From an uncultured Bacilli bacterium (lineage in GTDB: Bacteria; Bacillota_I; Bacilli_A; RF39; UBA660): DNA of 50,419 nucleotides. The notes beneath the pieces were generated by a model that saw nothing but the letters and a program-made list of their open reading frames with translations, did no database searches and was not told the DNA's origin. The stretch is taken from NCBI GenBank assembly GCA_947628345.1, contig CANQZM010000004.1:1-50419 (forward strand). Direction: 5' to 3'. Position 1 is the stretch's first letter. Each line of letters begins with the position of its first letter. Shown here in pieces: positions 28,574 to 46,235 of the stretch. Made by a program: the position numbers and the translations under genes.

Positions 28574-28639
28574 TATTAGAATAGGTGATTTTGTATAAAA
28601 TAAAGAAAACTTCTAATAATAAAATTAGGAGGAATAAGA

Positions 28640-29077
28640 ATGGAAGAAAAATTCGAATTATTAGAACAAATTCACCACGATGCGTCAATGGGTGGTTATA
28701 CTATTACAAAATTACTAGAATCATTAAAGGATAAAGATAACAAAATTAAAGCTTATTTGGAAGAAATATTACAAGATTATCAAAAATATGCTGAAGATGC
28801 AAAAGCAATATTAGAAAAGGCGGATAAAAAAGTAAGTAGTCCAAGCATGATGGCAAAAATGGGCTCTTCCATGGGCATTAATAAGGAAGTAAAGGAAGAT
28901 AATAGTGATGCTGCGATCGCTGATATGATGATCCAAGGTGTATCAATGGGTTCAATTGAAATTGAAAAAAAACTAAAGCAATATGAAAAAGATTTGGATA
29001 AGGAATACAAGAAAATAGCAAGGGAATATTTGAAATTTCAGGAAAAAGCAATTCAGCATTTAAAATCTTATTTATAA
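28640..29077 (+). CDS. Predicted four-helix-bundle protein, function unknown
   Basis: A 145-residue soluble protein with long amphipathic helices and a short Met/Ser/Gly-rich break (S-P-S-M-M-A-K-M-G-S-S-M-G-I) in the middle. The layout (helix pair, flexible link, helix pair) recalls ferritin-like DUF2383/PA2169-type proteins, but the E-x-x-H metal ligands of ferritins are not clear, so I leave function open. SD TTAGGAGGAATAAG before ATG is strong. It follows the ftsEX operon and opens the accessory island. Confidence 0.6.
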   Translation: MEEKFELLEQIHHDASMGGYTITKLLESLKDKDNKIKAYLEEILQDYQKYAEDAKAILEKADKKVSSPSMMAKMGSSMGINKEVKEDNSDAAIADMMIQGVSMGSIEIEKKLKQYEKDLDKEYKKIAREYLKFQEKAIQHLKSYL

Positions 29078-29098
29078 AAATTATTTTTGCTTATATTA

Positions 29099-29197
29099 TA
29101 TAATCTAAGATAAACAAGGCACATGTAGATATGTAATCTAGTTACAGTGATTTGCTTGGTAATTAGGTGTAAGTATTACATGTGTTTTTGCTTTGTT
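29099..29197 (+). ncRNA. Candidate structured RNA with a long closing helix
   Basis: A TATAAT at 29099-29104 is followed 8 bases later by AACAAGGC-ACATGTA (29113-29127), which pairs with TACATGT-[6-nt bulge]-GCTTTGTT (29177-29197): 15 bp with one G-U. Inside are a hairpin TGTAA/TTACA (29132-29136/29142-29146) and a weaker TTGC/GTAA stem, giving a three-way junction. A competing pairing of ATGTAAT with ATTACAT exists. TTTTT follows the inner helix, so part of this may terminate the preceding gene. I match it to no known riboswitch. It occupies most of the 241-base gap. Confidence 0.35.
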
Positions 29198-29284
29198 AAA
29201 TATAAAAATAATAGATACAAAACTTAACCAAGTGTAGGCAAATAATAAGTATGCAATATAATACTAGCTTTTTTATAACTTTTG

Positions 29285-29293
29285 TGGTATAAT
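29285..29293 (+). promoter_or_regulatory. Extended -10 promoter of the 687-residue protein gene
   Basis: TGGTATAAT (TG-n-TATAAT), 26 bases before ATG 29319; SD AAAAAGGGG. Confidence 0.6.
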
Positions 29294-29318
29294 ATGCCTA
29301 CAAAAAAGGGGAAAAAGT

Positions 29319-31382
29319 ATGGATAGATATGGAATATTACAAATTATATGTAACGAAGCTGATATAAAAATTCAAAAGGAATATTATAATTATCTAAATA
29401 AGTTAATAGATGGTATATTATTATATAAATATAGTAAAGAAAAATTTTATAAACCCGTTTTCAGTGTGAATCAAATAAATGATATAATATTTAAATTCTT
29501 AAATAAACATCCATTAGTATCTAAGGAAATGTTTACTTCAACTATGGTTGGTAAATTTAGCAGTATTACTAAGACTTATACTAAAATTGAAAAATATTAT
29601 AATCAATTCAATATGATTTATGATGAATATAAAGATATGAAATTTAGAGATAAAAAGTATACAGCATTTTATAATGAAATTTTAAATGATCAGCAATCGT
29701 TTTTTATAAAGGCTAATAAAATAAAAGAAACGAAAAAATTGATACAGCAGTTTTCTTTGACAGATAAAAAGTATCAGTGTTTAATTAATAAACAAAAATT
29801 AGCAATATTATTAACTAGTATTAGAAACAATACTTTAAAAAATTATAATATATCAGAAGAACAACTAAATAACAATTTAGCAAATGTACATGATGTTCTT
29901 TCACATAAAAGAAGTATTTATAAAACTTTTAGGCTCAATTCTACCGATTATGATGGGTTAGATAAGTTGTTTCTTTCAGGAGAATTAAATAAAGAAATTT
30001 TAAAAGATAAATTTCCAATTTACAATAAAAGACAATGTCAGGTAATTGTTAATGCCTATAATAAAACTTTATTTCCATATTTTGATAATGTTAAATTAGA
30101 AACTGAAGAAATTTCTAAAGATAATATAAAGTTTAATTGCCATGATTTGAAAATATATGAAATAAATAGAACAAGGCAAAATAGTATGGACTTTTTAGTG
30201 TCTTTAAGTGATGAACAAAAAAAGTATGTAAGGGCTCATAAAGAAGAGTTAAAAGGGATAATAAAATTATTACCACTAGTCAATGTTTTTTCTGAATTTA
30301 ATTCGGATGCTTTTATAAATATAATAATTTATTTTGATAAAATTAAGGAAAGATTAGGCGTAAGTAAATTGACCACAGATTATATTCTTAATAAATTTCC
30401 TAAAATTTTAGAATTATCAAATGCATATTCAACTGCACAAAACGAAACTTTATCTATATTAGGAGAAAAGACGGTTTTAACCATATTGAGAAATTATGCA
30501 ATTAGCTATGATCCTAATGATTATATATTGCCATATTTAAATATGCTTAATTTATCTAGTAGTTTTATACCACCTATTTCGGGAGAATATAAGAAATATG
30601 TTTATGAATCAGGAACAGCGGAAATACAAAGACTATTAATTGGAAGTCTTAGTTGTGACAGCTGTATTGGAATTGATGGAGCAGGTAGGGATGCATATCA
30701 AGAAGCTATTAATAGTGAAACAGGTGATGTTTTATTTATAAAGAATAGTTCTGATGATAAAGTCGTAGGAAGATCAATCATTTTAAGAAGAGGTAATTTT
30801 ATAATTATGGCTCCTATAATGGGAGAAAGAGGAGTTAATGAAAATTTATATGAAAAAGACTTTTTAAAACAAATTGCTAGTCAATTTTTAACAGCTTCCC
30901 AAAATAATGGTGATAATTTAGAATATGTATTTTTATCATATGAATTTAATATGGATAGGGGAAATTTTAAAATTATGAACGATTTAGATTTTTATACTAA
31001 TTTACCCCATTGTGATATTGCTTCTCAGGTGTTTGTAATTGGTAAATCTAAGTATGCTAAAAAAATAGAGTGGACACATGACTATAATTGTAGGTATTTA
31101 AGAACTAGAAAACCTGTAATTATGAAGGACCAAGATTATCAAAAAGATATTGAAAGAATTGATGCTTTGGAGACTTTACAAAAACATCAATCTAAAGAAA
31201 AAAATACTCCGTATAACAAAGTATATTTAGGTCAGGATTGGTATATTGGCCTAAATGAAGATTCTATGGATTTAGGAATATACGAAGTTAATGATATGAG
31301 ACAACAATATGAAATTAATGATACCTTGGATAAAATTAAAGGTAATCAAAAAATGAAAATTAAAAAAATTGACAAAAATTAA
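29319..31382 (+). CDS. Large cytoplasmic protein of unknown function
   Basis: A 687-residue protein without signal or membrane helices. The first 430 residues are helical, rich in Lys, Asn and Tyr. At about 445-510 lies a compact, probably conserved block: a C-x-x-C pair (C-D-S-C), then I-D-G-A-G-R-D-A-Y, D-V-L-F-I-K-N and V-V-G-R-S-I-I-L-R-R-G-N-F. The C-terminus is mixed alpha/beta and ends in a Lys-rich tail. I recognise no named domain. The Cys pair and the Gly/Arg pattern suggest a binding or catalytic site, but that is inference. It has its own promoter, and the promoter of the next gene lies inside its last codons. Confidence 0.6.
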   Translation: MDRYGILQIICNEADIKIQKEYYNYLNKLIDGILLYKYSKEKFYKPVFSVNQINDIIFKFLNKHPLVSKEMFTSTMVGKFSSITKTYTKIEKYYNQFNMIYDEYKDMKFRDKKYTAFYNEILNDQQSFFIKANKIKETKKLIQQFSLTDKKYQCLINKQKLAILLTSIRNNTLKNYNISEEQLNNNLANVHDVLSHKRSIYKTFRLNSTDYDGLDKLFLSGELNKEILKDKFPIYNKRQCQVIVNAYNKTLFPYFDNVKLETEEISKDNIKFNCHDLKIYEINRTRQNSMDFLVSLSDEQKKYVRAHKEELKGIIKLLPLVNVFSEFNSDAFINIIIYFDKIKERLGVSKLTTDYILNKFPKILELSNAYSTAQNETLSILGEKTVLTILRNYAISYDPNDYILPYLNMLNLSSSFIPPISGEYKKYVYESGTAEIQRLLIGSLSCDSCIGIDGAGRDAYQEAINSETGDVLFIKNSSDDKVVGRSIILRRGNFIIMAPIMGERGVNENLYEKDFLKQIASQFLTASQNNGDNLEYVFLSYEFNMDRGNFKIMNDLDFYTNLPHCDIASQVFVIGKSKYAKKIEWTHDYNCRYLRTRKPVIMKDQDYQKDIERIDALETLQKHQSKEKNTPYNKVYLGQDWYIGLNEDSMDLGIYEVNDMRQQYEINDTLDKIKGNQKMKIKKIDKN

Positions 31383-31397
31383 AGTTTGTGTTATACT
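31369..31397 (+). promoter_or_regulatory. Near-consensus SigA promoter
   Basis: TTGACA (31369-31374), exactly 17 bases, TATACT (31392-31397), with extended TG at 31389-31390. It overlaps the end of the upstream gene and drives a 103-residue orphan. Confidence 0.88.
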
Positions 31398-31427
31398 CTA
31401 AGGACTATTAGGCGAAGGGGGAAAATA

Positions 31428-31739
31428 ATGTCTATTACATTGAATCCAGAAACAATTTGGGTCTTAAAAGAAGATTATAGTCTAAAAAAATCTCAAATTA
31501 GTTATATTAAGAAATTTATAGAATTGTATGATGGAATAGCAGAAGAATATACTGATACAGTTGCCTTAACTTGTGGTGATGCTTATGCTGAGGCATTAAA
31601 TTATAATGAGTATAATGCAGAAGATATTGCCGCTGGGAAAGTAGAACGTATGAGTATAATGAAAAATATGGAAAAAAATTTACATCGCTATTATGAAAGT
31701 ATAGCTAAGACAGTTCCAAAGAAAAATGTTAAAAAGTAG
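31428..31739 (+). CDS. Small protein of unknown function
   Basis: A 103-residue soluble, mostly helical protein, starting MSITLNPETIWVLKEDYSL. I choose ATG 31428 (SD AAGGGGG, 31 bases after the -10) and not the upstream ATG at 31386, which lies within the promoter. The very strong promoter and a strong private terminator mean it is a separate, probably highly expressed gene. No family recognised. One cysteine (C41, approximate). Confidence 0.65.
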   Translation: MSITLNPETIWVLKEDYSLKKSQISYIKKFIELYDGIAEEYTDTVALTCGDAYAEALNYNEYNAEDIAAGKVERMSIMKNMEKNLHRYYESIAKTVPKKNVKK

Positions 31740-31767
31740 ATTGTGATTTTATACAATTTACTTTTTT
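31731..31767 (+). terminator. Strong intrinsic terminator
   Basis: 14-bp stem (31731-31744 / 31753-31766) with one G-U pair and an 8-nt loop; the T-run is part of the 3' arm. It overlaps the stop of the preceding gene. Confidence 0.85.
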
Positions 31768-31768
31768 C

Positions 31769-31798
31769 TTGCAAAAATTTTATTAATAAGTATATTAT
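31769..31798 (+). promoter_or_regulatory. Promoter of the GH25 lysozyme gene
   Basis: TTGCAA (31769-31774), 18 bases, TATTAT (31793-31798). Confidence 0.6.
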
Positions 31799-31834
31799 AG
31801 TAATAGAATTTGTACTAGGTAGGTAGGTGATAAT

Positions 31835-33034
31835 GTGAAAAGAATAAAAATAATTATTGTGGTAGTATTAAGTATCATGGGTATTATCGGTATAGTTTGC
31901 CTATATAATTATATTCGTATAAAAACAGCTAAGATTGAAGTTACATTGGTAAAAGATAGAAAAGTAGAATTTAATAGTGATGTTAAAGTGTCTGATTATA
32001 TTAGAAGTATTAACGGTAAAATTGAAAAAGATAGAAAAATAGATACAACTACTTTAGGTAAAAAGATAATTAAATTTAGTTATATAAATGATGATAAAAT
32101 TAAAGTTAAGTATCAATATGATATAGAAGTAGTAGATACGGTAGAACCCCTAATTTGGTTAAATGATACATATAGTGTAGAAGTTGGTAGTGATATTAAT
32201 TTAACTGATAAAATTTTATGTGGTGATAATTATGATAGTAATCCTAAATGTTATATTGAAGGAGAATATGATTTAAATCAAGAAGGAAATTATTCATTGG
32301 TTTTTAAAGCTGAGGACAGTAGTGGTAACAAAGAAGAACACCCATTTATCTTACAAGTTTATGCTCCAAAACAAACTAGTTCAAATCAAGAAAATTCTGC
32401 AGAAAACTATATTAATTTTGGTGACATTGTTAAAAATTATAAAAATAAAAATAATCAAATAGGAATTGATGTATCAAAATGGCAAGGTGATGTTGATTTT
32501 GACAAACTAAAACAAAGTGGAGTTGAATTTGTTATGATTAGAGTAGGTGGAAGCCTGGGAAAAGATGGACAATATTTTCTAGATGATAAATTCAAAATAA
32601 ATATGGAAAAAGCCAAAAAGGCTAAAATGCCAGTAGGTGTTTATTTTTATTCATATGCTAATTCAGTAACCAAAGCAAAAAAAGATGCTAAATGGGTTCT
32701 AAAACAAATAAAAGATTATGACTTAAAATTACCTATTTCATTTGATTGGGAGGAGTGGCAAGATTTTAATTCATATCATTTAAGTTTCTTTGGTCTTACT
32801 TCTATGGCTGAAGAATTTGTAAAAGATATAGAAAAGAAAGGTTATAGTGGATTGATTTATAGTAGTAAAGCATATTTAGATAATATATGGTTAGAGACTA
32901 AATATGATATATGGCTTGCCCATTATACTAGTGTTACAAATTATGAAAAACCATATAAAATGTGGCAATTGTGTAATAACGGAAGAGTTGATGGAATTAC
33001 AGGTGATGTTGATATAGATATTTATTATCCTTAA
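31835..33034 (+). CDS. Membrane-anchored GH25 lysozyme (muramidase)
   Basis: A 399-residue exported protein: membrane anchor (about residues 5-28), two beta-rich Ig-like segments (about 35-185; the second has D-x-x-E-P-x-I-x-L-N and A-E-D-S-S-G-N-K, typical of bacterial Ig/HYR-like folds), a linker, then a GH25 domain from about 208 (I-G-I-D-V-S-K-W-Q-G-D-V-D-F) with the catalytic F-D-W-E-E-W and the closing D-I-D-I-Y. GH25 cuts the MurNAc-GlcNAc bond of peptidoglycan. GTG start with TAGGTAGGTGATAAT upstream. It may remodel the cell's own wall or attack competitors. It lies just before the peptide cluster but has a separate promoter. Confidence 0.9.
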   Translation: MKRIKIIIVVVLSIMGIIGIVCLYNYIRIKTAKIEVTLVKDRKVEFNSDVKVSDYIRSINGKIEKDRKIDTTTLGKKIIKFSYINDDKIKVKYQYDIEVVDTVEPLIWLNDTYSVEVGSDINLTDKILCGDNYDSNPKCYIEGEYDLNQEGNYSLVFKAEDSSGNKEEHPFILQVYAPKQTSSNQENSAENYINFGDIVKNYKNKNNQIGIDVSKWQGDVDFDKLKQSGVEFVMIRVGGSLGKDGQYFLDDKFKINMEKAKKAKMPVGVYFYSYANSVTKAKKDAKWVLKQIKDYDLKLPISFDWEEWQDFNSYHLSFFGLTSMAEEFVKDIEKKGYSGLIYSSKAYLDNIWLETKYDIWLAHYTSVTNYEKPYKMWQLCNNGRVDGITGDVDIDIYYP

Positions 33035-33111
33035 TAATTAAAAAATTACTTTGAAATATCTAAATATTAATATGAGTATTTATTATTTTGTTAAATCATA
33101 GCAAATTTAAG

Positions 33112-33140
33112 TTGACATGATTTTTCCAATACTATAGAAT
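33112..33140 (+). promoter_or_regulatory. Strong promoter of the RiPP operon
   Basis: TTGACA (33112-33117), exactly 17 bases, TAGAAT (33135-33140), followed by the SD AGAGGAGGT before the peptide ATG at 33164. The 77 bases between the lysozyme stop and this promoter show nothing else. Confidence 0.85.
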
Positions 33141-33163
33141 AATTTATTAGAGGAGGTATGATT

Positions 33164-33298
33164 ATGAAAATAATTCAAGTTAATAGTTCTCAGAATAATG
33201 CACATTCTAGTATAAAAACATCTATGAATGGTAAATTTGAAATTGCAGTACGCAATAATTTAGATGCCTGTGGTTGTACAGGAAATGGTAATTGCTAA
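33164..33298 (+). CDS. Candidate RiPP precursor peptide, CxCx5C core
   Basis: A 44-residue peptide gene not picked up by length-limited gene finding. It has a perfect SD (AGGAGG, 33151-33156) and a strong promoter. The leader (residues 1 to about 33) starts MKIIQVNSSQNN and contains K-F-E-I-A-V-R; the end is N-N-L-D-A-C36-G-C38-T-G-N-G-N-C44. Cys, Gly, Asn and Thr cluster only in the last 10 residues, as in sactipeptide and ranthipeptide precursors. The adjacent gene is a radical SAM/SPASM maturase, the enzyme type that makes Cys thioether bonds. There is no double-Gly leader motif; the cleavage site is unknown. I match it to no named precursor family. Confidence 0.8.
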   Translation: MKIIQVNSSQNNAHSSIKTSMNGKFEIAVRNNLDACGCTGNGNC

Positions 33299-33321
33299 AG
33301 AAGTGATTTTTCACTTCTTTA
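33296..33321 (+). promoter_or_regulatory. Hairpin between precursor and maturase genes
   Basis: Perfect 11-bp stem TAAAGAAGTGA (33296-33306) / TCACTTCTTTA (33311-33321), loop TTTT. It starts in the peptide's stop codon. The following AGGTTTATTTGG has only a weak T-tract, so it should act as a leaky terminator or 3' mRNA stabiliser, leaving much more precursor than enzyme mRNA. Confidence 0.8.
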
Positions 33322-33340
33322 GGTTTATTTGGAGGTTTTT

Positions 33341-34603
33341 ATGAAAATAAGTAATTATAATATTATAAAGAAATATGGTGACGAAATTTTAGTTTATAAT
33401 TCTTTTTCCAAATCTAGTCTTTTTTTAGATAAAAATTCAGATACAGCTGCTTTTGAAAATATTGAAGCTTTTAAAAAGTTATCTAAAAAAGAACAAAAGA
33501 TATTAATTGATAACGGATTTGTTATTGACGATAATCGTGATGAGTTTTCTGAAATAAAATATATTTATCAACAAAAATATTTTGAAACAAATTTCTTTAA
33601 TATTGTTTTAGTTCCTTCATTGTCATGTAATTTTAAGTGTCCATATTGTTGTGAAAAAGACTATACTTGTGGTAAGCAAAATATAAAAAAATATTTTTCA
33701 GGTCTAAAAAACTATGCAGCAAAAAATTTTCATTTACATAATGTAGTACAAATAAGTTTGTTTGGTGGAGAACCATTACTTTATGTTAAAGAATGTCTTG
33801 AATTTTTGGATTGGGTAAAACAAGATGCTGAAAAATATGGTTATCAATATTTTACTAGTGTAGTTACTAATGGGTCTCTTTTAACTGAGGAAAATTTTAC
33901 AGATTTACTAAACCATAATCTTTATTCTTTACAAATAACAATTGATTCTGATAAAACAAATCATGATTCAATGAGAATTTTCAAAAATGGAGAAAAAACT
34001 TTTGATTTACTTATTGAAAAAATTAATAAACTAATACCTATATCAAAAGATTATGAAAAATTTAAATTTGTTTTACGTATAAATTTAAATAATACAACGG
34101 TAGATAAAGTTAAAACAACATTAGAATGTATAGAGAAGGAAAATAGAAAGTATGTTCATTTATTGATACGTGCTATTTATAATACTCATGCTTATAATGA
34201 AAAAAATAGTAATAATGTAAATGCCTTAAAAGAGTATTTTGATTTGGGTATGCAATTAGGGTTTCCTGTTTTAAAAGAAAAATATAATTATCAAACATGT
34301 GAAGCTTGTGCGGATAGAAAATTTTTCTATTTAATGCCAGATTTATCTATTTGGAAGTGTATTAACGATATAGGCTATGAAAATTGTAAAATAGGGAACT
34401 TAACTGATAGTGGAGAAGTAGAGTTAATTCCAGAAAATATAGTTGATTGGTATAATAGTTGTATGTCTGCTTTTTCAGATCCTGAGTGTATAAAATGTAA
34501 ATTGTTACCAGATTGTTTAGGTGGATGTCCTCTCCATAAGTGCAAAAACCATAAAAAATCTTGTCGAACATTTGATATGGCCTGTTTGCCTTTTATATAT
34601 TAA
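33341..34603 (+). CDS. Radical SAM/SPASM peptide maturase
   Basis: A 420-residue enzyme. The N-terminal region (about 1-80) looks like a peptide-recognition segment ending L-I-D-N-G-F-V-I. The radical SAM motif C-N-F-K-C-P-Y-C puts the [4Fe-4S] ligands at C96, C100 and C103; the F-G-G-E-P GGE motif follows. The C-terminal SPASM domain carries many cysteines (C-E-A-C ... W-K-C ... N-C-K-I-G-N-L ... C-I-K-C-x5-C-L-G-G-C-P ... C) for auxiliary clusters. Such enzymes form Cys-to-carbon thioether bonds on ribosomal peptides. GGAGG is spaced 5 bases before ATG 33341. It lies 43 bases after the precursor stop, behind the hairpin. Confidence 0.9.
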   Translation: MKISNYNIIKKYGDEILVYNSFSKSSLFLDKNSDTAAFENIEAFKKLSKKEQKILIDNGFVIDDNRDEFSEIKYIYQQKYFETNFFNIVLVPSLSCNFKCPYCCEKDYTCGKQNIKKYFSGLKNYAAKNFHLHNVVQISLFGGEPLLYVKECLEFLDWVKQDAEKYGYQYFTSVVTNGSLLTEENFTDLLNHNLYSLQITIDSDKTNHDSMRIFKNGEKTFDLLIEKINKLIPISKDYEKFKFVLRINLNNTTVDKVKTTLECIEKENRKYVHLLIRAIYNTHAYNEKNSNNVNALKEYFDLGMQLGFPVLKEKYNYQTCEACADRKFFYLMPDLSIWKCINDIGYENCKIGNLTDSGEVELIPENIVDWYNSCMSAFSDPECIKCKLLPDCLGGCPLHKCKNHKKSCRTFDMACLPFIY

Positions 34604-34614
34604 TATGGTGAGTT

Positions 34615-35502
34615 ATGAATAATAATCAAAATAGAAATTCTAAGTATGATGTTTTATATCATTTACAAGCTAAGTTAAAACATGCTTATTATCAATTAAA
34701 TGATATGAGTGCCTGCATAGATATTGGGAAAAATAGAAATGATCAACAAGATGGAGTTTTAATTATAAGGCATCCTCTTAATCATCAATTTAAAATGTTA
34801 GCAATTGCTGATGGTATGGGAGGATTAAGTAATGGTGCCTTAGCAAGTAATATAGCCTTATGTCAACTAATATATTGGTTTGAACAATTACCTATAAATT
34901 ATTTTAAATCCGAGTCAAATATATACACGCAGGTTGAAAATAAAATAAAGGAGATAAATGCACTCATTAAAAAATATTGTAATGGTGGTGGAACAACATT
35001 ATCCATAGCTATTATCAGTTCCTGTAATACCTTTTTATTGAATATTGGCGATTCACGAATTTATTTATCTAATAAAAATAAATTAGAACAAGTTAGTATA
35101 GATCACTCGATTGTGTGGAATTTATATATGCAAAAGAAAATTATGAGTAAAGATGATATGAGATATCATAGATTAAATCATCTTATTACCTCAAGTTTAG
35201 GTGGTTCTAATAAAAAGTTACTTATTAATGAATTAATTGTGTCTAATCAAGATTATGAAAGGATTTTTCTTTTTACGGATGGTGTTACAGATTGTTTATC
35301 TGATGATCAATTACAAACAATAGTCAGTAATAATAATTCAGAAAGTGTTGCTAATCAAATTGTAGAATATGCATTACAAAGTAATTCGAAAAATTGTGAG
35401 TTATCTGTAAAAGACTATTATAATAGTATATTAGGAGGAAAAGATAATACATCAGCAGCTGTATTAGTAAAAAAAGGAGCTTTTTATGGAAAAAAAATAT
35501 AA
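34615..35502 (+). CDS. PP2C-type Ser/Thr protein phosphatase
   Basis: A 295-residue metal-dependent phosphatase. All motifs are present in order: a D-I-G-x-x-R-N-x-Q-D start, A-I-A-D-G-M-G-G, G-G-T-T-L-S-I-A, N-I-G-D-S-R-I-Y-L, F-T-D-G-V-T-D and G-K-D-N-T-S. It is probably active and cytoplasmic (no membrane helix). It starts 12 bases after the maturase stop and its end overlaps the kinase-like gene by 17 bases, so it belongs to the operon. Its substrate may be the peptide, the maturase or a host regulator; none is shown. PP2C normally partners a Ser/Thr kinase (PrkC), but the neighbour here is a phosphotransferase of another family. Confidence 0.9.
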   Translation: MNNNQNRNSKYDVLYHLQAKLKHAYYQLNDMSACIDIGKNRNDQQDGVLIIRHPLNHQFKMLAIADGMGGLSNGALASNIALCQLIYWFEQLPINYFKSESNIYTQVENKIKEINALIKKYCNGGGTTLSIAIISSCNTFLLNIGDSRIYLSNKNKLEQVSIDHSIVWNLYMQKKIMSKDDMRYHRLNHLITSSLGGSNKKLLINELIVSNQDYERIFLFTDGVTDCLSDDQLQTIVSNNNSESVANQIVEYALQSNSKNCELSVKDYYNSILGGKDNTSAAVLVKKGAFYGKKI

Positions 35503-36382
35503 ACAGTGGCGTGATTTGATTTTGGATCCTTTTGAAATTAAATTTAAAAAAATCAAATTAAATAAAATTATTAATTATTTTCCTGCTGGAAATGATGTTT
35601 TAGAGTGTGAGTGTTATATTGATAATATTTCATCCATTGTTGTTTTAAAAATTGAACGAAGTAAAATGGCTGATTTTGACACTGAAGAAAAAAACTTGAA
35701 GTTATTATACAAAAATAATTATATAAATTTTATCCCTAAAGTTTATGAGTCTGGTAAGGTGCAAAATAGAAAATATCTTATTTTAGAAAAAATTGAAGGT
35801 AACAGATTATCAGATATTGTTGAGCAAAAGTTATCTAAATTCGAATTACAGGTATATTTAAAAAAATATGGTAAAATGTTAGCAAAAGTTCATAAAATTC
35901 CTATAGATGGATTTAATATGGCAAAGCAAAGAATTATTAATGATGTTCCTAAAATTGAAGATTATCCTCAAATTGATAAATTTATTCAACCATATATTAC
36001 ATATTTAAAAGATAATAAACCTGTTATAGAAATGAATACTTTTATACATGGAGATTTTCATTATGCTAATGTTTTATGGAAAAATAAAGAAATTATTGGA
36101 TTGTTAGATTTCGAATATAGTGGAAAAGGGTTTAAGGAGCAAGACATTGCTTGGGCATGTGTATTAAGGCCTAATCAACAATTTATGAATAATGTAGGAG
36201 ATATTAAAGCCTTTTTAACGGGCTATTTAGAGGATGGAAAATTTGATTATGAAAAATTAAAATGGTGCCTTATTAATGCTTATTGTCATTTTTATTTGAT
36301 GAATATTGATGATACAAATTATATAAAACAAATAGACTTGTTGTTAAATTCTATAAAAAATGATAAAATAAGAATCAATTAG
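35486..36382 (+). CDS. APH/choline-kinase-like phosphotransferase
   Basis: A 298-residue kinase of the aminoglycoside phosphotransferase superfamily. Visible: a lysine strand V-V-L-K-I-E-R, hinge Y-L-I-L-E-K-I-E-G, the Brenner motif H-G-D-F-H-Y-A-N (catalytic Asp, metal Asn) and L-L-D-F-E-Y-S, whose D-F-E form is common in choline/ethanolamine and thiamine kinases. It transfers phosphate to a small molecule or peptide; the substrate is unknown. Antibiotic resistance is not implied. ATG 35486 has AAAAGGAGC upstream, inside the phosphatase gene. The coupling and overlap with a phosphatase suggest opposing steps. Confidence 0.85.
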   Translation: MEKKYKQWRDLILDPFEIKFKKIKLNKIINYFPAGNDVLECECYIDNISSIVVLKIERSKMADFDTEEKNLKLLYKNNYINFIPKVYESGKVQNRKYLILEKIEGNRLSDIVEQKLSKFELQVYLKKYGKMLAKVHKIPIDGFNMAKQRIINDVPKIEDYPQIDKFIQPYITYLKDNKPVIEMNTFIHGDFHYANVLWKNKEIIGLLDFEYSGKGFKEQDIAWACVLRPNQQFMNNVGDIKAFLTGYLEDGKFDYEKLKWCLINAYCHFYLMNIDDTNYIKQIDLLLNSIKNDKIRIN

Positions 36383-36411
36383 TTTTGTTTCATACAGGGA
36401 GGTGATTAAAA

Positions 36412-38466
36412 ATGTCTATGGATCAATCAGAATTAAAAAAAGAAAAAGAATACTTAGAAAAAGTAAAAGAAGTGTTGAAATCTATAATTGATGAAGCTAA
36501 AAAACATGTTGAGTATAGTGTTAAGGATATAAATGGTTTAAAACGTTTTATGTGGGATAACTTATCAGACTATACAGATGAGGAAAGAGCTTTGGCATTA
36601 TATGAAGTTGATCATAGTGTAGATATTACAAATCAGCAAATTAGTTCTATTTCAAAATATGAAAAGGCACTAAATTCTCCCTATTTTGGTAAAATTGTTT
36701 TTAAAGAAGAAAATGATGATGAAGAATTAGATATATATATTGGTTTAACTTCTGTTCAAAATAAAATACAATTTTATGTCTATGATTGGCGAGCTCCTGT
36801 TTCTAGTATGTTTTATAATTATGAATTAGGATCTGCTAGTTATAATACTCCTGGCGGTAAAGTTTGTGGAGAAATTTTATCAAAAACACAATTTAAAATA
36901 GTTGATGGTAAGATGGTAAGATGTTTTTCTAGTGATATCAATATTGATGATGAATATTTGCAGGAAATTTTAGTTACCTCTTCTAGTGACAAAATGAAGA
37001 ATATAGTTAGTACTATTCAAAGAGAGCAAAATACGATAATTCGTAATGATAAAGATAAATACTTAATAGTTCAAGGGGCAGCCGGTAGTGGAAAAACTTC
37101 GGTAGCATTACATCGTATAGCTTATCTTCTATATAAAGATATATATTTAAAGTCTAATAATGTTTTAATATTGTCTCCTAGTGATGTTTTTTCTGATTAT
37201 ATTTCTAATGTGTTACCAGAATTAGGAGAACAAAATGTTTTAACCTCTACATTTAGTGAATTTGCATCTTCATATTTAAAACCCTATAAAAATATTGAAA
37301 ATTATAGTCAATTTTTAGAAAGAGTATATAATAAATCAGCCCAGGAGAACCATATAATTGAATACAAGATGTCTACTCAATATGAGAAGGATCTTAATGA
37401 TTTTATAAAATTGTATGAGAACAGCATATCTTTTTCATATAATATAAAAATGGGTAATAACTGTATTAGTGCACAAGAATTAAAAAAATTATTTATGGAT
37501 AAATTTAAAAAATTCCCTTTTAAGGAAAGACTTGAGTTATTGTCTGAATATGTGTGCAATCGTTTAGGATTGGCAAAAAAAACATATATGAATAGAATAA
37601 AAAAACAATTACAAGAATCTAGTGGTCTTGAATTGGATTATTATAATTTATATTTGCTTTTTCTAAAAAATCAATTTAAGAATCAACCTTCTAGTATTTT
37701 AATGACTAATAATCAAGTTCCATATGAAGATATTTCAGGATTGTTATATATGTATTTTACAATCAATGGTTATCCAAATTACAATCATATTCGTCAGGTG
37801 GTAATAGATGAAGCTCAGGATTACACATCATTTCAAATTAATATAATGAAAAATATATTTAAAAATTCAGCTTTTACCGTTTTAGGAGATATAAATCAGG
37901 GCTTAAATCCATTTAATAATGAAACCCTTTATGATATTTCAAATTTATTTTCATCTGCTAAATATATAGAATTAACTAAAACGTATAGATCTAGTCAAGA
38001 AATTATTGATTATTCTAATCAAATTTTAAACATAAACAATGCTTGCTCTGTCAGAAGACCTATAGATATTCCTGTTGAAATTAAAACGTGTTCAAAGCAA
38101 GACATATTTTCCAATCTACGTGAAGATATAGAAAATATGAAAAATAATCGCATGAATAAGATTGCCGTTATTACTAGAACAAATAATCAGGCAAAAAAGA
38201 TATTTAAAGAATTAAGTAATTATGAATTACCTGAAATACAATTAATTTCTTCAAGTGATACTCAAATAAAAGAATCTATTATTGTTATTCCTTCTTATTT
38301 ATCTAAAGGTTTAGAATTTGATGGGGTTATAGCCTATAACGATTTAGATGATAGTTATAGATCAGGAGATGAAAAGCTTTATTATGTAGTTTGTACAAGA
38401 GCCCAAAATCAATTAACCATATATAACGAACCTCAAAAGATCTTAAAACGAAATCCCAATAGATAG
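36412..38466 (+). CDS. helD: HelD-like superfamily 1 helicase/translocase
   Basis: A 684-residue UvrD-like protein with the HelD layout: N-terminal coiled coil (about 3-50, the arm that enters the RNA polymerase secondary channel), Y-D-W-R-A-P-V-S-S-M-F-Y, Walker A G-A-A-G-S-G-K-T-S, V-I-D-E-A-Q-D-Y, L-G-D-I-N-Q, T-Y-R-S-S-Q-E-I, L-S-K-G-L-E-F-D and Y-V-V-C-T-R-A. HelD frees stalled RNA polymerase from DNA; related HelR-type proteins protect polymerase from rifamycins. It is shorter than B. subtilis HelD (774) but complete in motifs. SD GGGAGGTGAT, 29 bases after the phosphotransferase stop; the operon terminator follows it. Confidence 0.9.
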   Translation: MSMDQSELKKEKEYLEKVKEVLKSIIDEAKKHVEYSVKDINGLKRFMWDNLSDYTDEERALALYEVDHSVDITNQQISSISKYEKALNSPYFGKIVFKEENDDEELDIYIGLTSVQNKIQFYVYDWRAPVSSMFYNYELGSASYNTPGGKVCGEILSKTQFKIVDGKMVRCFSSDINIDDEYLQEILVTSSSDKMKNIVSTIQREQNTIIRNDKDKYLIVQGAAGSGKTSVALHRIAYLLYKDIYLKSNNVLILSPSDVFSDYISNVLPELGEQNVLTSTFSEFASSYLKPYKNIENYSQFLERVYNKSAQENHIIEYKMSTQYEKDLNDFIKLYENSISFSYNIKMGNNCISAQELKKLFMDKFKKFPFKERLELLSEYVCNRLGLAKKTYMNRIKKQLQESSGLELDYYNLYLLFLKNQFKNQPSSILMTNNQVPYEDISGLLYMYFTINGYPNYNHIRQVVIDEAQDYTSFQINIMKNIFKNSAFTVLGDINQGLNPFNNETLYDISNLFSSAKYIELTKTYRSSQEIIDYSNQILNINNACSVRRPIDIPVEIKTCSKQDIFSNLREDIENMKNNRMNKIAVITRTNNQAKKIFKELSNYELPEIQLISSSDTQIKESIIVIPSYLSKGLEFDGVIAYNDLDDSYRSGDEKLYYVVCTRAQNQLTIYNEPQKILKRNPNR

Positions 38467-38493
38467 ATTTAATAATTATTTTAATATTATGAT

Positions 38494-38515
38494 AAAAACC
38501 TAGCAAGGTTTTTTT
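38494..38515 (+). terminator. Intrinsic terminator of the RiPP operon
   Basis: Stem AAAAACCT (38494-38501) / AGGTTTTT (38506-38513), 4-nt loop, T-run. Confidence 0.85.
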
Positions 38516-38529
38516 TAATAAAGAAAAAT

Positions 38530-38703
38530 TAGTATATGTGACAGAAAAATAGAACTAGAAGAGGGAAAAGCAAATATAATTTATCTAGAGAAAAACTTAA
38601 TAATTTAAATAAAAAAATTAGAAGAAAGATAAGCTAAATTAGAATTGTAAGGAAAACATGATTTAATACTATTGGGTTCAATTATTGCCTTAGTCTTTAA
38701 TTA
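38530..38703 (+). pseudogene. Possible remnant of a small gene
   Basis: No intact gene lies in the 322 bases 38467-38788. One frame reads R-K-I-E-L-E-E-G-K-A-N-I-I-Y-L-E, stop, I-K-K-L-E-E-R, stop, A-K-L-E-L, stop, then G-K-H-D-L-I-L-L-G-S-I-I-A-L-V-F-N, stop. The charged coiled-coil-like part followed by a hydrophobic run looks like a decayed small mobilisation or plasmid-type protein, but this is weak. It may be non-coding AT-rich filler. Confidence 0.25.
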
Positions 38704-38736
38704 ACATTATATTATCTTGAGCAAGATTATAACTAT

Positions 38737-38764
38737 TTGAAACATAGTTTTTTTATGGTATACT
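38737..38764 (+). promoter_or_regulatory. Promoter of the small membrane-protein gene
   Basis: TTGAAA (38737-38742), 16 bases, TATACT (38759-38764) with TG at 38756-38757. Confidence 0.7.
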
Positions 38765-38788
38765 GATTAAAGGAAAGTTGGCGTAAAT

Positions 38789-39223
38789 ATGTCTCAAAAT
38801 AAATTAATTAATAAAATAAAAAGAAAACAAAATGAAATATTTATTTTAAGTACATTTGTGATAATGACATTAATATTTATTAGTTCTCTTTACTATATTA
38901 AATTGCGCGATAATACGATTAACAACGATTTTTTGGTTGTATTTAAGGGAGAATTAAACAATAATGTTTACTCAACTTATTTGTATGAAAATAAAAAAAA
39001 GGTTGGTAATAAGACAAAAATTGAATATAAATATATCAATACTACACTTACAACACAATTAGACAGTACTAATTATGTTGAAAAAGTTACAAAAAAGGGC
39101 ACAATAAAGAAAAAGAGGAAAATATTTGAAATTGCAGAGAAAAATCATGCTAATTCTTATGTTGTATTAAATGATAATTTTAAGATTTATTCTATAGAGC
39201 AATTTAGGCAAATTTTTAAGTAA
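38789..39223 (+). CDS. Single-pass membrane protein of unknown function
   Basis: A 144-residue protein with a basic N-terminus (about 1-16), one membrane helix (about 18-37) and a basic extracytoplasmic domain of about 100 residues, with alternating strands and several Tyr and Lys. No domain recognised. It lies 17 bases before the acyltransferase gene and probably shares its promoter; a role beside it at the cell surface is plausible but not shown. Confidence 0.6.
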   Translation: MSQNKLINKIKRKQNEIFILSTFVIMTLIFISSLYYIKLRDNTINNDFLVVFKGELNNNVYSTYLYENKKKVGNKTKIEYKYINTTLTTQLDSTNYVEKVTKKGTIKKKRKIFEIAEKNHANSYVVLNDNFKIYSIEQFRQIFK

Positions 39224-39240
39224 GTAGTAAAGGAGAAAAA

Positions 39241-40230
39241 ATGAAACAGACGAGAGAATATTCTTTTGATATACTTAGGGCAATATCCATGGTAATGGTA
39301 ATAATAATTCATGTATCAAATATTTATTGTAGAAAATATGGATTAATAAGTTCTAATTCATATGTTTTTTCATTAATATTTAATACTATTTCACGTGTAA
39401 GTGTTCCAATTTTTTTTATGATAAGCGGAGCTCTTTTATTAAATAGAAACTTTGATAAAAGTAAATATATAAATAGGATAATTAAATTTATTATTTTAAT
39501 TGTTGCTTGGGATATTATTTATTTAATTTGGGAATATTTATATTTGGGAATAAAATATGATAAATTATATATGTTATTAGTTAGCCCTTATCGAGCTCAT
39601 TTGTGGTTTTTATATACTATTATAATTTTGTATCTTATTCAGCCAATCTTAAAGTACATTTTAAATAAGGCAAATAATTTAATAAAAATATGTTTATTTA
39701 TTCTTTGGTTTATTTTTTCTACACTAAGTATGTATAATTATACAATTGCCCAAATTTTTACTATTTTTTGTTATATAGGTTATTTTGTTATTGGTTATTA
39801 TTTATATAACTACATTAAAAATCAAAAACTTAATAAATATAATATAATTGCAATACTAATGCTTTTAATATCTTATAGTGCTAGTATATATTTAAATTAT
39901 AAATCAACACTTCAGTTTAATATGTTTTATAATAACTTTTTTGCCTATAGAGCTCCATATATTATTTTGTGTTCATTTGTTTTATTTACATTGATTTATA
40001 ATTGGTTTCATTCATCTAAGCCTCATAATATTATTATGTTTTTTTCTGATATATCGTTAGGAGTATATTTAATTCATGGTATTTTTTTAGATATAACTAC
40101 TAAAATATTTGATTATACTAAAATAAATGCTTTGATTGGTGTGCCATTATTTACAATTATTATTTTTATTTGTAGTATTATTTCTGTTTATATCTTAAGA
40201 AAAAGCAAAATATTATCAAAAATATTATAA
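39241..40230 (+). CDS. Membrane acyltransferase (acyltransferase-3 family)
   Basis: A 329-residue integral membrane protein with about ten helices. Family marks: an N-terminal R-E-Y-S-F-D-I-L-R-A-I-S, a catalytic-type H at I-I-H-V-S-N, R-V-S-V-P-I-F-F-M-I-S-G-A-L-L-L, and H-L-W-F-L-Y. These enzymes O-acylate surface sugars, lipids or peptidoglycan. There is no fused SGNH domain, unlike OatA. The substrate could be wall polymer or, speculatively, the neighbouring peptide. SD AAAGGAGAAAA. Confidence 0.85.
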   Translation: MKQTREYSFDILRAISMVMVIIIHVSNIYCRKYGLISSNSYVFSLIFNTISRVSVPIFFMISGALLLNRNFDKSKYINRIIKFIILIVAWDIIYLIWEYLYLGIKYDKLYMLLVSPYRAHLWFLYTIIILYLIQPILKYILNKANNLIKICLFILWFIFSTLSMYNYTIAQIFTIFCYIGYFVIGYYLYNYIKNQKLNKYNIIAILMLLISYSASIYLNYKSTLQFNMFYNNFFAYRAPYIILCSFVLFTLIYNWFHSSKPHNIIMFFSDISLGVYLIHGIFLDITTKIFDYTKINALIGVPLFTIIIFICSIISVYILRKSKILSKIL

Positions 40231-40356
40231 ATAATATTAGCTTAAATAAACATATAGTATGAAATATAAAGAAAGTTTAAAAAGAAAATACATTTTTAAT
40301 ACAAAAATTTGTCGAAATATGATACAATATAATCAATAAAATAGGAGTCGTTGATT

Positions 40357-43300
40357 ATGAATAAAAAAGGTAGAGGTATTTTACTTGTAATTTTGATTAT
40401 AATATGTATTTTTGGTTGTATTCATTTGAAATCTAATAAATTATTAAAAAATAATAAAAATGACTTAATTAATATTTCCTATCTATCTGAAGATTTTATG
40501 AACAATTATTTTAAAGCAATTGGAAAAGTTACTTCAGATGAAGAAAAAGCAAATATGCTTATTGTAATATCTAACACTGAAATTAGTAATTCATATGGGG
40601 CTAAAAATATTATTGAAGCACCAAATAATCAGTATATATTACAATATGATTCTAAAAATACTAAGAATAAGGCATTAGCTAAACTTAAAAATGATAAATC
40701 AATAAGTAGTGTTGAAGAAAATATTATTTATAAAACTGAAGAAGTAAATTATAATTCATGGGGAATTAAACAAATGTCATTAGATTATGCTACTGACATA
40801 GCAAATACTAATAATAATATTAAGGATGTTACTGTCGCAATAATTGATACAGGATGTGATCTTACTTTATTTAATAAAAATTATAGTGGAAGAATAATAG
40901 AAACATATAACGTCTTAGAAGAATCAGCAAATACTATGACTGATGAAAACGGTCATGGTACTCATATTGCTGGAACAATTGCTGAAGGAACACCTTTAAA
41001 TGTAAAGATACTCCCTGTTAAAGTTTCAAAAAAATCAACAATGTATAATACAGATATTGTCGCAGGAATAAATTATATTACTTATAATAAAAAAGCTGAT
41101 GTCATAAATATGAGTTTTGGAAGTTATTATAACAGTGAAGCTATTGCTCAAGCAATTGATGCAGCTAATAAACAGAATATAATTAGTGTAAGCGCAGCAG
41201 GAAATGATAATACAGATAAAAAGTGTTTCCCTGCAGCACTTGATAGTACAATTTCTGTTGCATCAGTTGATTCAGAATTAACAAAATCAAGTTTTTCAAA
41301 TTACGGTTCTGAAATTACATTTGCTGCTCCAGGGACTAATATTAAAAGTATTAATGGTACTAAAAGTGGAACTTCTATGGCTACTCCTCACGCTGTAAGT
41401 GCCGTTGCTATTTTGAAAAGTTATAATAAAAATTTAACTTTAAATAATGTTGTAGACATTTTAAAAGAAAATACTATTGACTTAGGTGAAGAAGGATGGG
41501 ATCCATATTATGGATATGGACTAATCTCTTTTAATAATGTGCAATTTTGTGATAATACTTATTGTGATGAATATGGTGTATATAAAAACTTAAATAAAAA
41601 CATTGATAAAATTGAATTAGTAGAGTTAAAATTTACAAAATATAATTATTATTCATTGACCAATATTATGGCTAGTAAAATTAGGGTCTATTATATTGAT
41701 GGTACTAATGAAGAAATGCTACTAAGCAAATTACCTAATTTAGAGGTTTTAAATTATGATTCTATATCTAAGCAAGAGCAAAATGTAACTATTAAGACAA
41801 ATGATGTAAGTATAAATATAAATGTTACAAATCCAGATAATTATGAAAGTGGCTGGGAATATAATGATCTTGATAATGGAAGAGTTGAACTAATTGGATA
41901 TAAAAATCATGGATTAAATGTTAATAGATTATACATTCCCGATACAATTGATGGAAAAACAGTAGTTTCTTTTGCTGATAATGTTCAATTTAGTAAGTTA
42001 GCTGATTTTTCATCATATGAATATTTATATTTACCAACGAATTTTATGCGAATTGGAACTTATTCTTTATCAGAAACAAGTATAAAAAATATATATGGCA
42101 GTAGCACAGGAATAGAGATAGGTTCACATGGATTAGAATCTAGTTCTATAGTTTCTTTAGATGTTCCTATAATTAAAATTGAAGATAATGCATTCAAAAA
42201 TGATTATGAATTAATCCGCATTAATGTATCAAAAAAAGTAAATGAAATAGGTGATTATGCATTTTATAATTGTAAAAAATTAATGGAAGTTAATAATTTA
42301 AATGATGTAGCATATCGATATGTTTTACGTGTTGGAGAATATGCATTTTATAATTGTAAAGCCTTATCACAATTTGAATTAGATATAAATGGAGTTATTG
42401 ATGAATATGCATTTGCAAATTGTTCTTCATTAACTACTATGAATTTATTAAATGTTGATTCAATTGGAGCATATGCATTTTATAGTAGTGGTATATCGAA
42501 GGCATCTTTTGGATCAAATTTAGAAGTACTATCAAAGTCTTCTTTTGAAAATTGTATGCACTTAACTTCAATTGATGTTATAAAAGGAAGAATTGAATCT
42601 CGTGCCTTTTGGAATTCTAATATTAGTCAAATTTCTATTACTAGTAGGGTAGAATATATTGCTGAAGATTCTTTCGCATATTCACCTATTAAAACACAAA
42701 CTGGAACTTTGAATGAAAACGGTATATATAAAGTAGTTCCTGGTTTAGGAATAGTAGAAAATGGTAATAAGTTATTAGTTGGTTTTACTAATGCTATAGG
42801 TGCAAGTAATACTAATATACCAGACTATATTACTGAAATAGGAAATTATGCATTTACAGGTAACAATACACTAGAAAACATAATTATACCAGAGAATGTT
42901 ACTAGTATAGGAGAGTATGCTTTTAAAGATTGTTATCAATTATCAAATGTTTATATGTTTGGAAATAGTATAAAGCTTGGAAAAGATACATTTAAAAGGA
43001 CATATGAGGGGGAAATTAAAAATAATGAATTAATAATATATGTTCATAAAGATTCAGACTTAAAGCAAACTGTTGCTAAACAAGGGTTAAATTATAGACA
43101 TATTGAACCAGATGAGATGGTAGTGATTGATCAAAAAGGTAAATATAAAGCATTTGAACAGGTTGATTATAATGATATTTCTGTAAAATTAATATATCAT
43201 GAAGCTACATATCGTGAGGAAATTCTTTCCACAATGAATTATGGTATTGTTACTCCTTTATCTAATGGTGTTGGCTATATTATATCTTATCAAGATGGTT

Positions 43301-44541
43301 CAAGTTTGAAATATAAAGATACATATTATACTATAAATGCCAAAAGTGCTATTGGGTATGCTATTAATAAAAATGTTGAAGTTAAAGTAGAAAAGGCAAC
43401 ACCAACATATACAACTCCAAGTGATTTAACTGCTAATCTTGGACAAAAATTGTCGGAAATAGAATTACCAGATGGTTTTGAATGGATGGATGATAACCAA
43501 ACTATTGAAGAAGTTGGTAATATAGTATATAAGGCTAAATATATTCCTAATGATACAAATAATTATGAAATAGTGGAAAATATTGATATTCATATTTTAG
43601 TAACTAGTACTAAATCTATAATTACTCCAAATATTACTATAAAAAACAAAATGTATGATGGAACAACAACCATATCTTTAGGTGATATAACTGTTTCTAA
43701 TTTGGAAATATCAGATTATAGTATTGTAAGTGCTGTAGCTTCTAGTGCTGATGCTGGTAAAACAACTGCCAAAATAAAATTAAAATTATCAAACGAAAAA
43801 TTTCATGATTATTCATTTAGCAATGGTAAACAAGAAAAAGAATTTATAGTGGATTTTGAAATACTTAAAGCTAATATAAATGTTATTGATTCTTCTAAAG
43901 ATGTAACTGTTAAATATGATGGACAACCTCATAGTGTTGAAATAGATTTAAAGTGTAGTCCACATGCAACTGTAAAATATATGGATGAAAATAATGGCTA
44001 TACACTAAGTAAAGTTCCTGAATATACAGGAGTTGGGACTTATGTAATTAAGTATAAAGTATATATTGATGATAATTATACCGAGTATTTCGGGCAAAAA
44101 ACTTTAATCATTGAAAATAGTGATGGATATGTAATTCATGATTATAGTGTTGATGAAATTAATAAATATATTAGTAAGATTATGGTAAATACAGATGTAG
44201 ATAAATTTATATCACATATCGATTTAAGTTACGGGTATGAAATAATAGTTGATTATAAACAAATAAATAATAAAAAACTACTATATACAGGAGGAAAAAC
44301 TAAAGTAACAAAAGATTCAGATCTATATAGAGAGTATATAAATATTGTAATTGGAGATATAAATGGTGATGGATTAATTAATTCTGCTGATTTACTAAAA
44401 ATAAGACAACATTTATTAGGAACAAATATTTTATCAGGGGCATATTATTTATCGTCTGATATAAATTATGACGATACAATTAATTCTGCTGATTTATTAA
44501 GAGTAAGACAACATTTATTGAATATTAAACCGATAGAATAA
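40357..44541 (+). CDS. Giant subtilisin-like protease with leucine-rich repeats and dockerin
   Basis: A 1394-residue exported protein. A signal sequence/anchor (about 6-25) and propeptide (to about 125) precede an S8 subtilase with D164 (A-I-I-D-T-G), H200 (G-H-G-T-H-I-A-G) and S340 (G-T-S-M-A-T-P-H), all intact. From about 490 come BspA-type leucine-rich repeats (I-G-x-Y-A-F-x-x-C-x-x-L), then from about 1010 beta-sandwich modules of MBG/YDG type, and last a dockerin with two Ca2+ loops (G-D-I-N-G-D-G-L-I-N-S-A-D from about 1333, and S-D-I-N-Y-D-D-T-I-N-S-A-D). ATG 40357 has TAGGAG spaced 9 bases. The dockerin should dock the protease to a cohesin; the next gene may encode it. Leader-peptide processing for the nearby RiPP is another, weaker possibility. 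Confidence 0.9.
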   Translation: MNKKGRGILLVILIIICIFGCIHLKSNKLLKNNKNDLINISYLSEDFMNNYFKAIGKVTSDEEKANMLIVISNTEISNSYGAKNIIEAPNNQYILQYDSKNTKNKALAKLKNDKSISSVEENIIYKTEEVNYNSWGIKQMSLDYATDIANTNNNIKDVTVAIIDTGCDLTLFNKNYSGRIIETYNVLEESANTMTDENGHGTHIAGTIAEGTPLNVKILPVKVSKKSTMYNTDIVAGINYITYNKKADVINMSFGSYYNSEAIAQAIDAANKQNIISVSAAGNDNTDKKCFPAALDSTISVASVDSELTKSSFSNYGSEITFAAPGTNIKSINGTKSGTSMATPHAVSAVAILKSYNKNLTLNNVVDILKENTIDLGEEGWDPYYGYGLISFNNVQFCDNTYCDEYGVYKNLNKNIDKIELVELKFTKYNYYSLTNIMASKIRVYYIDGTNEEMLLSKLPNLEVLNYDSISKQEQNVTIKTNDVSININVTNPDNYESGWEYNDLDNGRVELIGYKNHGLNVNRLYIPDTIDGKTVVSFADNVQFSKLADFSSYEYLYLPTNFMRIGTYSLSETSIKNIYGSSTGIEIGSHGLESSSIVSLDVPIIKIEDNAFKNDYELIRINVSKKVNEIGDYAFYNCKKLMEVNNLNDVAYRYVLRVGEYAFYNCKALSQFELDINGVIDEYAFANCSSLTTMNLLNVDSIGAYAFYSSGISKASFGSNLEVLSKSSFENCMHLTSIDVIKGRIESRAFWNSNISQISITSRVEYIAEDSFAYSPIKTQTGTLNENGIYKVVPGLGIVENGNKLLVGFTNAIGASNTNIPDYITEIGNYAFTGNNTLENIIIPENVTSIGEYAFKDCYQLSNVYMFGNSIKLGKDTFKRTYEGEIKNNELIIYVHKDSDLKQTVAKQGLNYRHIEPDEMVVIDQKGKYKAFEQVDYNDISVKLIYHEATYREEILSTMNYGIVTPLSNGVGYIISYQDGSSLKYKDTYYTINAKSAIGYAINKNVEVKVEKATPTYTTPSDLTANLGQKLSEIELPDGFEWMDDNQTIEEVGNIVYKAKYIPNDTNNYEIVENIDIHILVTSTKSIITPNITIKNKMYDGTTTISLGDITVSNLEISDYSIVSAVASSADAGKTTAKIKLKLSNEKFHDYSFSNGKQEKEFIVDFEILKANINVIDSSKDVTVKYDGQPHSVEIDLKCSPHATVKYMDENNGYTLSKVPEYTGVGTYVIKYKVYIDDNYTEYFGQKTLIIENSDGYVIHDYSVDEINKYISKIMVNTDVDKFISHIDLSYGYEIIVDYKQINNKKLLYTGGKTKVTKDSDLYREYINIVIGDINGDGLINSADLLKIRQHLLGTNILSGAYYLSSDINYDDTINSADLLRVRQHLLNIKPIE

Positions 44542-44559
44542 TAGTTTGGAGGAATAGAA

Positions 44560-46137: not shown

Positions 46138-46170
46138 AACAAGGATATATTATAAATTCCTTGTTTTTTT
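46138..46170 (+). terminator. Intrinsic terminator before uvrB
   Basis: Stem AACAAGGA (46138-46145) / TCCTTGTT (46158-46165), T-run to 46170. Marks the end of the accessory island. Confidence 0.85.
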
Positions 46171-46235
46171 AGGGTAAAAATGTTAAAATAAATAAACAAA
46201 AAATTAAAAAGTAATTTATAGAAAGGAGGATAAAA

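Follow-up and report, generated by a model that had tools for sequence, protein, structure and literature searches.

The window analysed here (50,419 nt in length, from a contig of an uncultured Bacilli bacterium) contains at nt 33112–38517 a promoter, a short peptide gene and a hairpin, followed by four genes that encode a radical SAM/SPASM maturase, a PP2C-type phosphatase, an APH-fold kinase and the RNA polymerase recycling factor HelD, and by a final hairpin. The question raised by this locus is what a peptide-modifying enzyme would have to do with two phospho-enzymes and HelD. A first-pass annotation had described an operon for a ribosomally synthesized and post-translationally modified peptide (RiPP), made up of a promoter, a 44-codon peptide gene, a hairpin and four plus-strand genes, and each of these parts was found in the sequence. 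The combination of a short precursor gene, a radical SAM/SPASM maturase and a peptide core that is conserved in all eight loci recovered bears out this description, and the locus is very probably a radical SAM RiPP cassette. The preferred reading, to which we give a probability of roughly 0.4, is that the peptide is directed at RNA polymerase and gated by phosphorylation, with HelD as its dedicated protector.

Spread and conservation of the cassette

The maturase clade was sought by profile and protein searches of genome samples from the family, order, class and phylum. It was found in eight genomes, all from one family and representing seven genera, with 57–76% identity to the window enzyme. 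One search recovered it in 7 of 386 family genomes, and the eighth, G214, came from another sample; three loci of a separate collection were judged to be the same contigs as those of G021, G001 and G147, and were counted once only. Genes for the peptide, maturase, PP2C and APH-fold kinase are present in all eight loci, and their order is constant wherever one contig shows them (the cassette of G214 is split over two contigs, which together hold the complete set). HelD lies downstream of the kinase gene in seven of the eight. The peptide core and its cysteines are therefore not peculiar to the window, nor is the association of such maturases with the downstream genes, the two points on which the first-pass annotation was most exposed. 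The flanking genes are unlike in each of the eight loci. Pairwise identities of maturase, PP2C, kinase and HelD co-vary between genomes (Spearman 0.61–0.84), some of which is explained by shared ancestry; on this correlated divergence, together with linkage conserved in seven genera, chance neighbours were rejected.

The precursor gene (MKIIQVNSSQNNAHSSIKTSMNGKFEIAVRNNLDACGCTGNGNC; nt 33164–33298, plus strand) has a homologue directly 5' of the maturase gene in every locus. It is preceded by a Shine-Dalgarno sequence, GAGGAGG, and since an alternative in-frame ATG at nt 33158 is only 1 nt from this sequence, nt 33164 is the likelier start. In the alignment of the eight peptides the leader is variable and the core (DACGCTGNGNC in the window, nt 33263–33295, plus strand) is near-invariant. 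The consensus DAC.CTGN..C is found in all eight, the invariant residues being I3, I17, D34, A35, C36, C38, T39, G40, N41 and C44, and most members have three cysteines in the CxCx5C arrangement noted at first for the window peptide. Within the core, 113 of 157 pairwise codon differences are synonymous. The only positions with Ser or Thr in all eight are T39, in the core, and position 16 (S/T), in the leader. No double-glycine leader was seen, the window peptide matched nothing in Pfam, and none of the eight matched NCBIfam.

The signals around the gene are also shared. The promoter of the whole operon (TTGACA-17-TAGAAT, nt 33112–33140, plus strand) was described as strong from the outset; it has 11 of 12 matches in a promoter scan, and in seven of the eight loci a TTGAC(A/T) box, spaced by 17 nt from a -10-like box, occurs 48–53 nt upstream of the start codon. 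A hairpin scan found a 12-bp hairpin between the peptide and maturase genes (nt 33295–33322, plus strand), and a hairpin folds at the same place in all eight loci, with sequences that are unrelated in several of them. It probably acts as a partial terminator or as a stabiliser of the 3' end, and so keeps the peptide in excess over the enzyme. The conserved core, the synonymous drift and the shared promoter and hairpin indicate that the peptide gene is real and under selection for its core, and a spurious open reading frame (ORF) was rejected on the eight conserved copies.

The cassette was not found in four genomes of the same genus as the window genome (a draft of 1.3 Mb in 105 contigs). Because the uvrB gene of the window genome is 85–87% identical to those of these four, it belongs to that genus lineage and contamination is unlikely. 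In G021, G147 and G001 the uvrB identity is 69–72%, and maturase divergence is similar or somewhat greater, so that old inheritance with frequent loss and old transfer both fit. Spread by phages or plasmids was considered and rejected, as maturase homologues there are distant (most of their length aligns at <30% identity); those on viral contigs are weak or partial only.

Maturase and expected modification

The maturase gene (nt 33341–34603, plus strand) was assigned by family and motif matches, and encodes 420 aa from the ATG at nt 33341, or 424 aa from a TTG at nt 33329. The protein has a CxxxCxxC motif at residues 96–103 and an N-terminal segment resembling a RiPP recognition element (RRE); the motif and the SPASM-type cysteines are conserved across all eight maturases. 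The top NCBIfam models gave E-values of 1e-34 to 2e-48 and scores of 119–165 bits, far under their cut-offs of 400–600: CefB (165 of 600 bits), TIGR04463 (160 of 525), Clo7bot, TIGR04334 (140.6 of 600) and geopeptide (119 of 400). SCIFF, TIGR03974, was lower still (66.6 of 425). Known NCBIfam RiPP classes were therefore rejected, the maturase being below every cut-off and the peptide unmatched, in agreement with the initial remark that no named class has this gene set. In a phylogenetic tree the eight window-type maturases form one clade (support 100/100), apart from Clo7bot and TIGR04463 representatives. The closest solved structure by sequence is CteB (5wgg/5why), which is also the best match by fold, as judged from a low-confidence model of the maturase (mean pLDDT 63).

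Given the maturase family and the invariant cysteines, the default expectation is that the enzyme would form one or more thioethers on peptide cysteines. In the NxxcA ranthipeptide of Streptococcus orisratti, Asn20 is crosslinked to Cys23 (PMC8326336). The invariant N41 and C44 of the cassette peptide have the same spacing, which makes C44 to N41 the first crosslink candidate.

Four other loci (L055–L058; G021:C25, G833, G890 and G842) encode another radical SAM family, of about 450 aa, whose members are tightly related. Its best NCBIfam match is again CefB (146 of 600 bits), its precursor peptide was not identified at these loci, and a gene for a protein of about 670 aa lies downstream in L055 and L057, and apparently also in L056 and L058.

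HelD, the phospho-enzymes and the proposed function of the peptide

The last gene of the operon (nt 36412–38466, plus strand) encodes a class I HelD of 684 aa, which scores 493 bits against NF041464 (cut-off 419) and aligns with Bacillus subtilis HelD (6wvk) from the N-terminal arm through the motor. Operon HelDs have an acidic N-terminal tip region (DNLSDYTDEE in the window) and an intact Walker A motif. In G147 and G214 a second HelD gene is found directly upstream of the peptide gene (L017:5494–7485 and L059:1525–3489), and these copies form one group with the operon HelDs, separate from 11 housekeeping HelDs (99/99). A housekeeping HelD that stands beside the cassette by chance was rejected on this separation; the host genome has its housekeeping HelD on contig 7, and a divergent HelD on contig 29. 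HelD is best known for the rescue and protection of RNA polymerase. The N-terminal domain of B. subtilis HelD protects the polymerase from rifampicin (PMC12802891), and HelR is reported to do the same in Actinobacteria (PMC10719064). It is tentatively proposed, by analogy, that RNA polymerase would be the target of the peptide and HelD the protector, a proposal that we place somewhat below even odds. The operon is probably closed by a short hairpin with a T-run (AAACCT-AGCA-AGGTTT, nt 38496–38517, plus strand), read directly from the sequence. The terminator annotated there thus corresponds to a terminator-like hairpin, but a weak one: with only two G-C pairs it lies below the threshold of the hairpin scan, which did not call it.

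The phosphatase (nt 34615–35502, plus strand; 295 aa) is a PP2C of the Stp1/IreP-like type, which exceeds the Pfam gathering thresholds (PF00481, 46.5 vs 20.3 bits; PF13672, 41.5 vs 24) and retains the metal-site aspartates. In all eight carriers it is a cassette-specific paralogue, second to a housekeeping PP2C that is present in nearly all genomes. Other PP2C relatives with 34–37% identity, in G016, G029, G021 and G214, were set aside as they are surrounded by ordinary housekeeping genes. The kinase gene (nt 35486–36382, plus strand; 298 aa) overlaps that of PP2C by 17 nt. Its catalytic HGDxHxxN and DxE motifs are intact, and its AlphaFold model (pLDDT 87) has APH(3') enzymes as best PDB matches; since it scores only 49 bits against APH_3p, the APH(3') resistance family (cut-off 205), it falls outside the known resistance enzymes. 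The gene occurs in 8 of 8 carriers and 1 of 29 non-carriers. The sole such non-carrier, G715 (L090:5907–6786), has two ORFs next to uvrA with 55–58% identity to the cassette kinase and no peptide or maturase gene nearby, possibly a remnant or an assembly error. A cluster kinase that phosphorylates a RiPP precursor has a precedent in PadeK of paeninodin (PMC9266682), and the chance that the peptide or its partner is the substrate of this kinase and phosphatase is put a little short of one in two. The initial suggestion that PP2C, kinase and HelD all serve one pathway is thus borne out in part, by the linkage of the two phospho-enzymes in every locus and of HelD in all but one. A step of any of the three in peptide biosynthesis would be conjecture, and HelD itself is likelier to act on RNA polymerase than in the chemistry of the pathway.

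Under the preferred reading, the peptide's own promoter would drive its production in excess, the conserved promoter and attenuating hairpin having the roles suggested above. The maturase would bind the leader through its RRE-like segment and cross-link the C-terminal core, most simply by one or more cysteine thioethers. The mature peptide would then act on RNA polymerase, and the cassette HelD would enter the channels of the polymerase and displace the peptide or rescue the stalled enzyme, in the way that rifampicin is countered by HelD and HelR. The APH-fold kinase and PP2C may switch either the peptide or a direct partner of it from a silent to an active form and back, with T39 and S/T16 as candidate sites. 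As was remarked for the window operon at first, no transporter or leader peptidase accompanies the genes; neither was found adjacent to the cassette at any of the eight loci. The peptide therefore probably works in the cell that makes it, or else is exported through a general pathway.

A parallel is found in three genomes of the same host family, G836, G740 and G873 (L051, L052 and L053), where distant relatives of the maturase (22–28% identity; the reading frame of that in G836 is interrupted) adjoin an ABC-F gene of the ribosomal-protection-like type and small cysteine-containing peptides. The latter have a similar start, MKIIRK, MKIVKK or MIIIKK. These loci are possibly ribosome-directed RiPP clusters with target protection, and no description of RiPP clusters with ABC-F was found in the literature searched. 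Set beside HelD, the ABC-F genes suggest that every such cluster encodes a protector of its particular target, which favours RNA polymerase as the target in the window cassette, HelD as the protector and the kinase/PP2C pair as the switch. It is doubtful that this extends to a new RiPP class, in which a thioether-type peptide would target the polymerase of its producer, checked by the kinase/PP2C switch and a co-evolved HelD immunity in parallel to the ABC-F sister clusters.

Several observations weigh against an RNA polymerase-directed peptide with HelD as its protector. Genome G001, which is 98% complete, has the peptide, maturase, PP2C and kinase genes and no HelD anywhere, so that HelD is not obligatory for the cassette. 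The near-invariant core is unlike that of many antimicrobial peptides engaged in an arms race, the substrates of APH-fold kinases are usually small molecules, and the ABC-F proteins (266–293 bits) are below their family cut-off of 380. All genomes compared are draft assemblies, and we infer the link of the peptide to RNA polymerase, as to either phospho-enzyme.

The absence of HelD from G001 and the near-invariant core keep open a regulatory role, in which an intracellular, non-toxic RiPP, SCIFF-like in role, would be a cofactor-like molecule or a signal to which the kinase and PP2C respond. HelD would then lie on the output side and adjust transcription, instead of conferring immunity. The contrast of invariant core and variable leader suits such a peptide, as do the phospho-enzymes being steadier than HelD and the lack, at all eight loci, of a transporter, a protease or a membrane protein for immunity. 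The broad spread of SCIFF peptides speaks against an antimicrobial role for them, and they have been linked to quorum sensing (PMC8326336). However, the patchy spread of the cassette, in few of the family genomes and in none of the four from the same genus, is better suited to an accessory trait. The best-known role of HelD also points elsewhere, and a regulatory function is considered possible but unlikely. A conventional exported bacteriocin, with exporter and leader protease encoded elsewhere in the genome, is considerably less probable: distant maturase relatives do adjoin ABC exporters (L054 and a Clo7bot plasmid locus), and there are secreted hydrolases in the window region, but none of the eight cassettes adjoins an exporter or protease, their flanking genes differ at each locus, and the peptides have no double-glycine leader. 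Slightly less probable again is a system for phage defense or abortive infection, where the peptide would be a transcription toxin freed on infection and otherwise restrained by kinase, phosphatase and HelD. The patchy occurrence, changing surroundings and toxin-plus-restraint gene set fit this view, and so do the absent export genes, but no defense island was noted around the window cassette, and PADLOC models gave weak matches at a generic superfamily level only, on which known defense systems were rejected. The three cysteines could bind metal and the ORF is short, but an unmodified metal-binding peptide or spurious ORF with four unrelated enzymes as neighbours is highly improbable in light of the eight conserved copies, synonymous drift, promoter, Shine-Dalgarno sequence and enzyme linkage repeated across seven genera.

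If an RNA polymerase-directed peptide is the correct reading, a ribosomal peptide would be tied to HelD, whose known roles so far are the rescue of stalled RNA polymerase and tolerance to rifampicin, and HelD would serve as dedicated self-protection. The purpose of specialised HelD copies that accompany a housekeeping HelD would become testable, as would the switching of a RiPP by a reversible phosphorylation pair. With the ABC-F sister clusters, the protection gene would serve to predict the target, a useful mining rule for small-genome bacteria.

Genomic setting and comparison with known systems

The cassette lies in the interval between pcsB and uvrB (nt 28574–46235 in the window), a variable stretch flanked by conserved genes for cell division and repair; among species of the genus this interval measures 7.5–18 kb and differs in content. 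The interval is variable in all four same-genus genomes, and in the three where it is held by one contig it lacks the cassette; the flanks are too different between relatives for the ends of an insertion to be defined. Also within it (nt 40351–44541, plus strand) is a gene for a protein of 1396 aa that joins a subtilase domain to BspA-type leucine-rich repeats and, at its C-terminus, a type I dockerin, an unusual protein for so small a genome.

Radical SAM RiPPs are a known kind of system; searches of the libraries and literature turned up neither this family of peptides, nor this clade of maturases, nor their linkage to APH, PP2C and HelD. In the open-access literature no link of a radical SAM RiPP to PP2C or APH was seen, the search for HelD being blunted by the common word 'held'. 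The cassette resembles SCIFF/CteB (TIGR03974) in its radical SAM/SPASM fold and N-terminal leader-binding segment, CteB being the best solved match, but its peptide has three cysteines rather than the six of SCIFF, and PP2C, APH and HelD are added. With the NxxcA ranthipeptide it shares the Asn-x-x-Cys spacing (N41 to C44, as Asn20 to Cys23), whereas its peptide has two further invariant cysteines and a crosslink that is only predicted. Clo7bot, TIGR04463, CefB and geopeptide supply the best-scoring maturase models and likewise have small cysteine-containing peptides upstream; the cassette maturases form a clade separate from Clo7bot and TIGR04463, the Clo7bot plasmid locus differs in its many peptides and ABC transporters, and the TIGR04463/CefA locus in its large precursor and radical SAM methyltransferase, and in having no HelD, PP2C or APH. 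Lasso-peptide clusters with the precursor kinases PadeK and ThcoK also encode a kinase (PMC9266682), but that of the cassette has an APH fold and is paired with PP2C. Finally, like B. subtilis HelD and HelR, the cassette HelD keeps the N-terminal channel-entering domain and the motor of class I, and differs from them in belonging to a peptide-linked paralogue clade, apart from the housekeeping copy.

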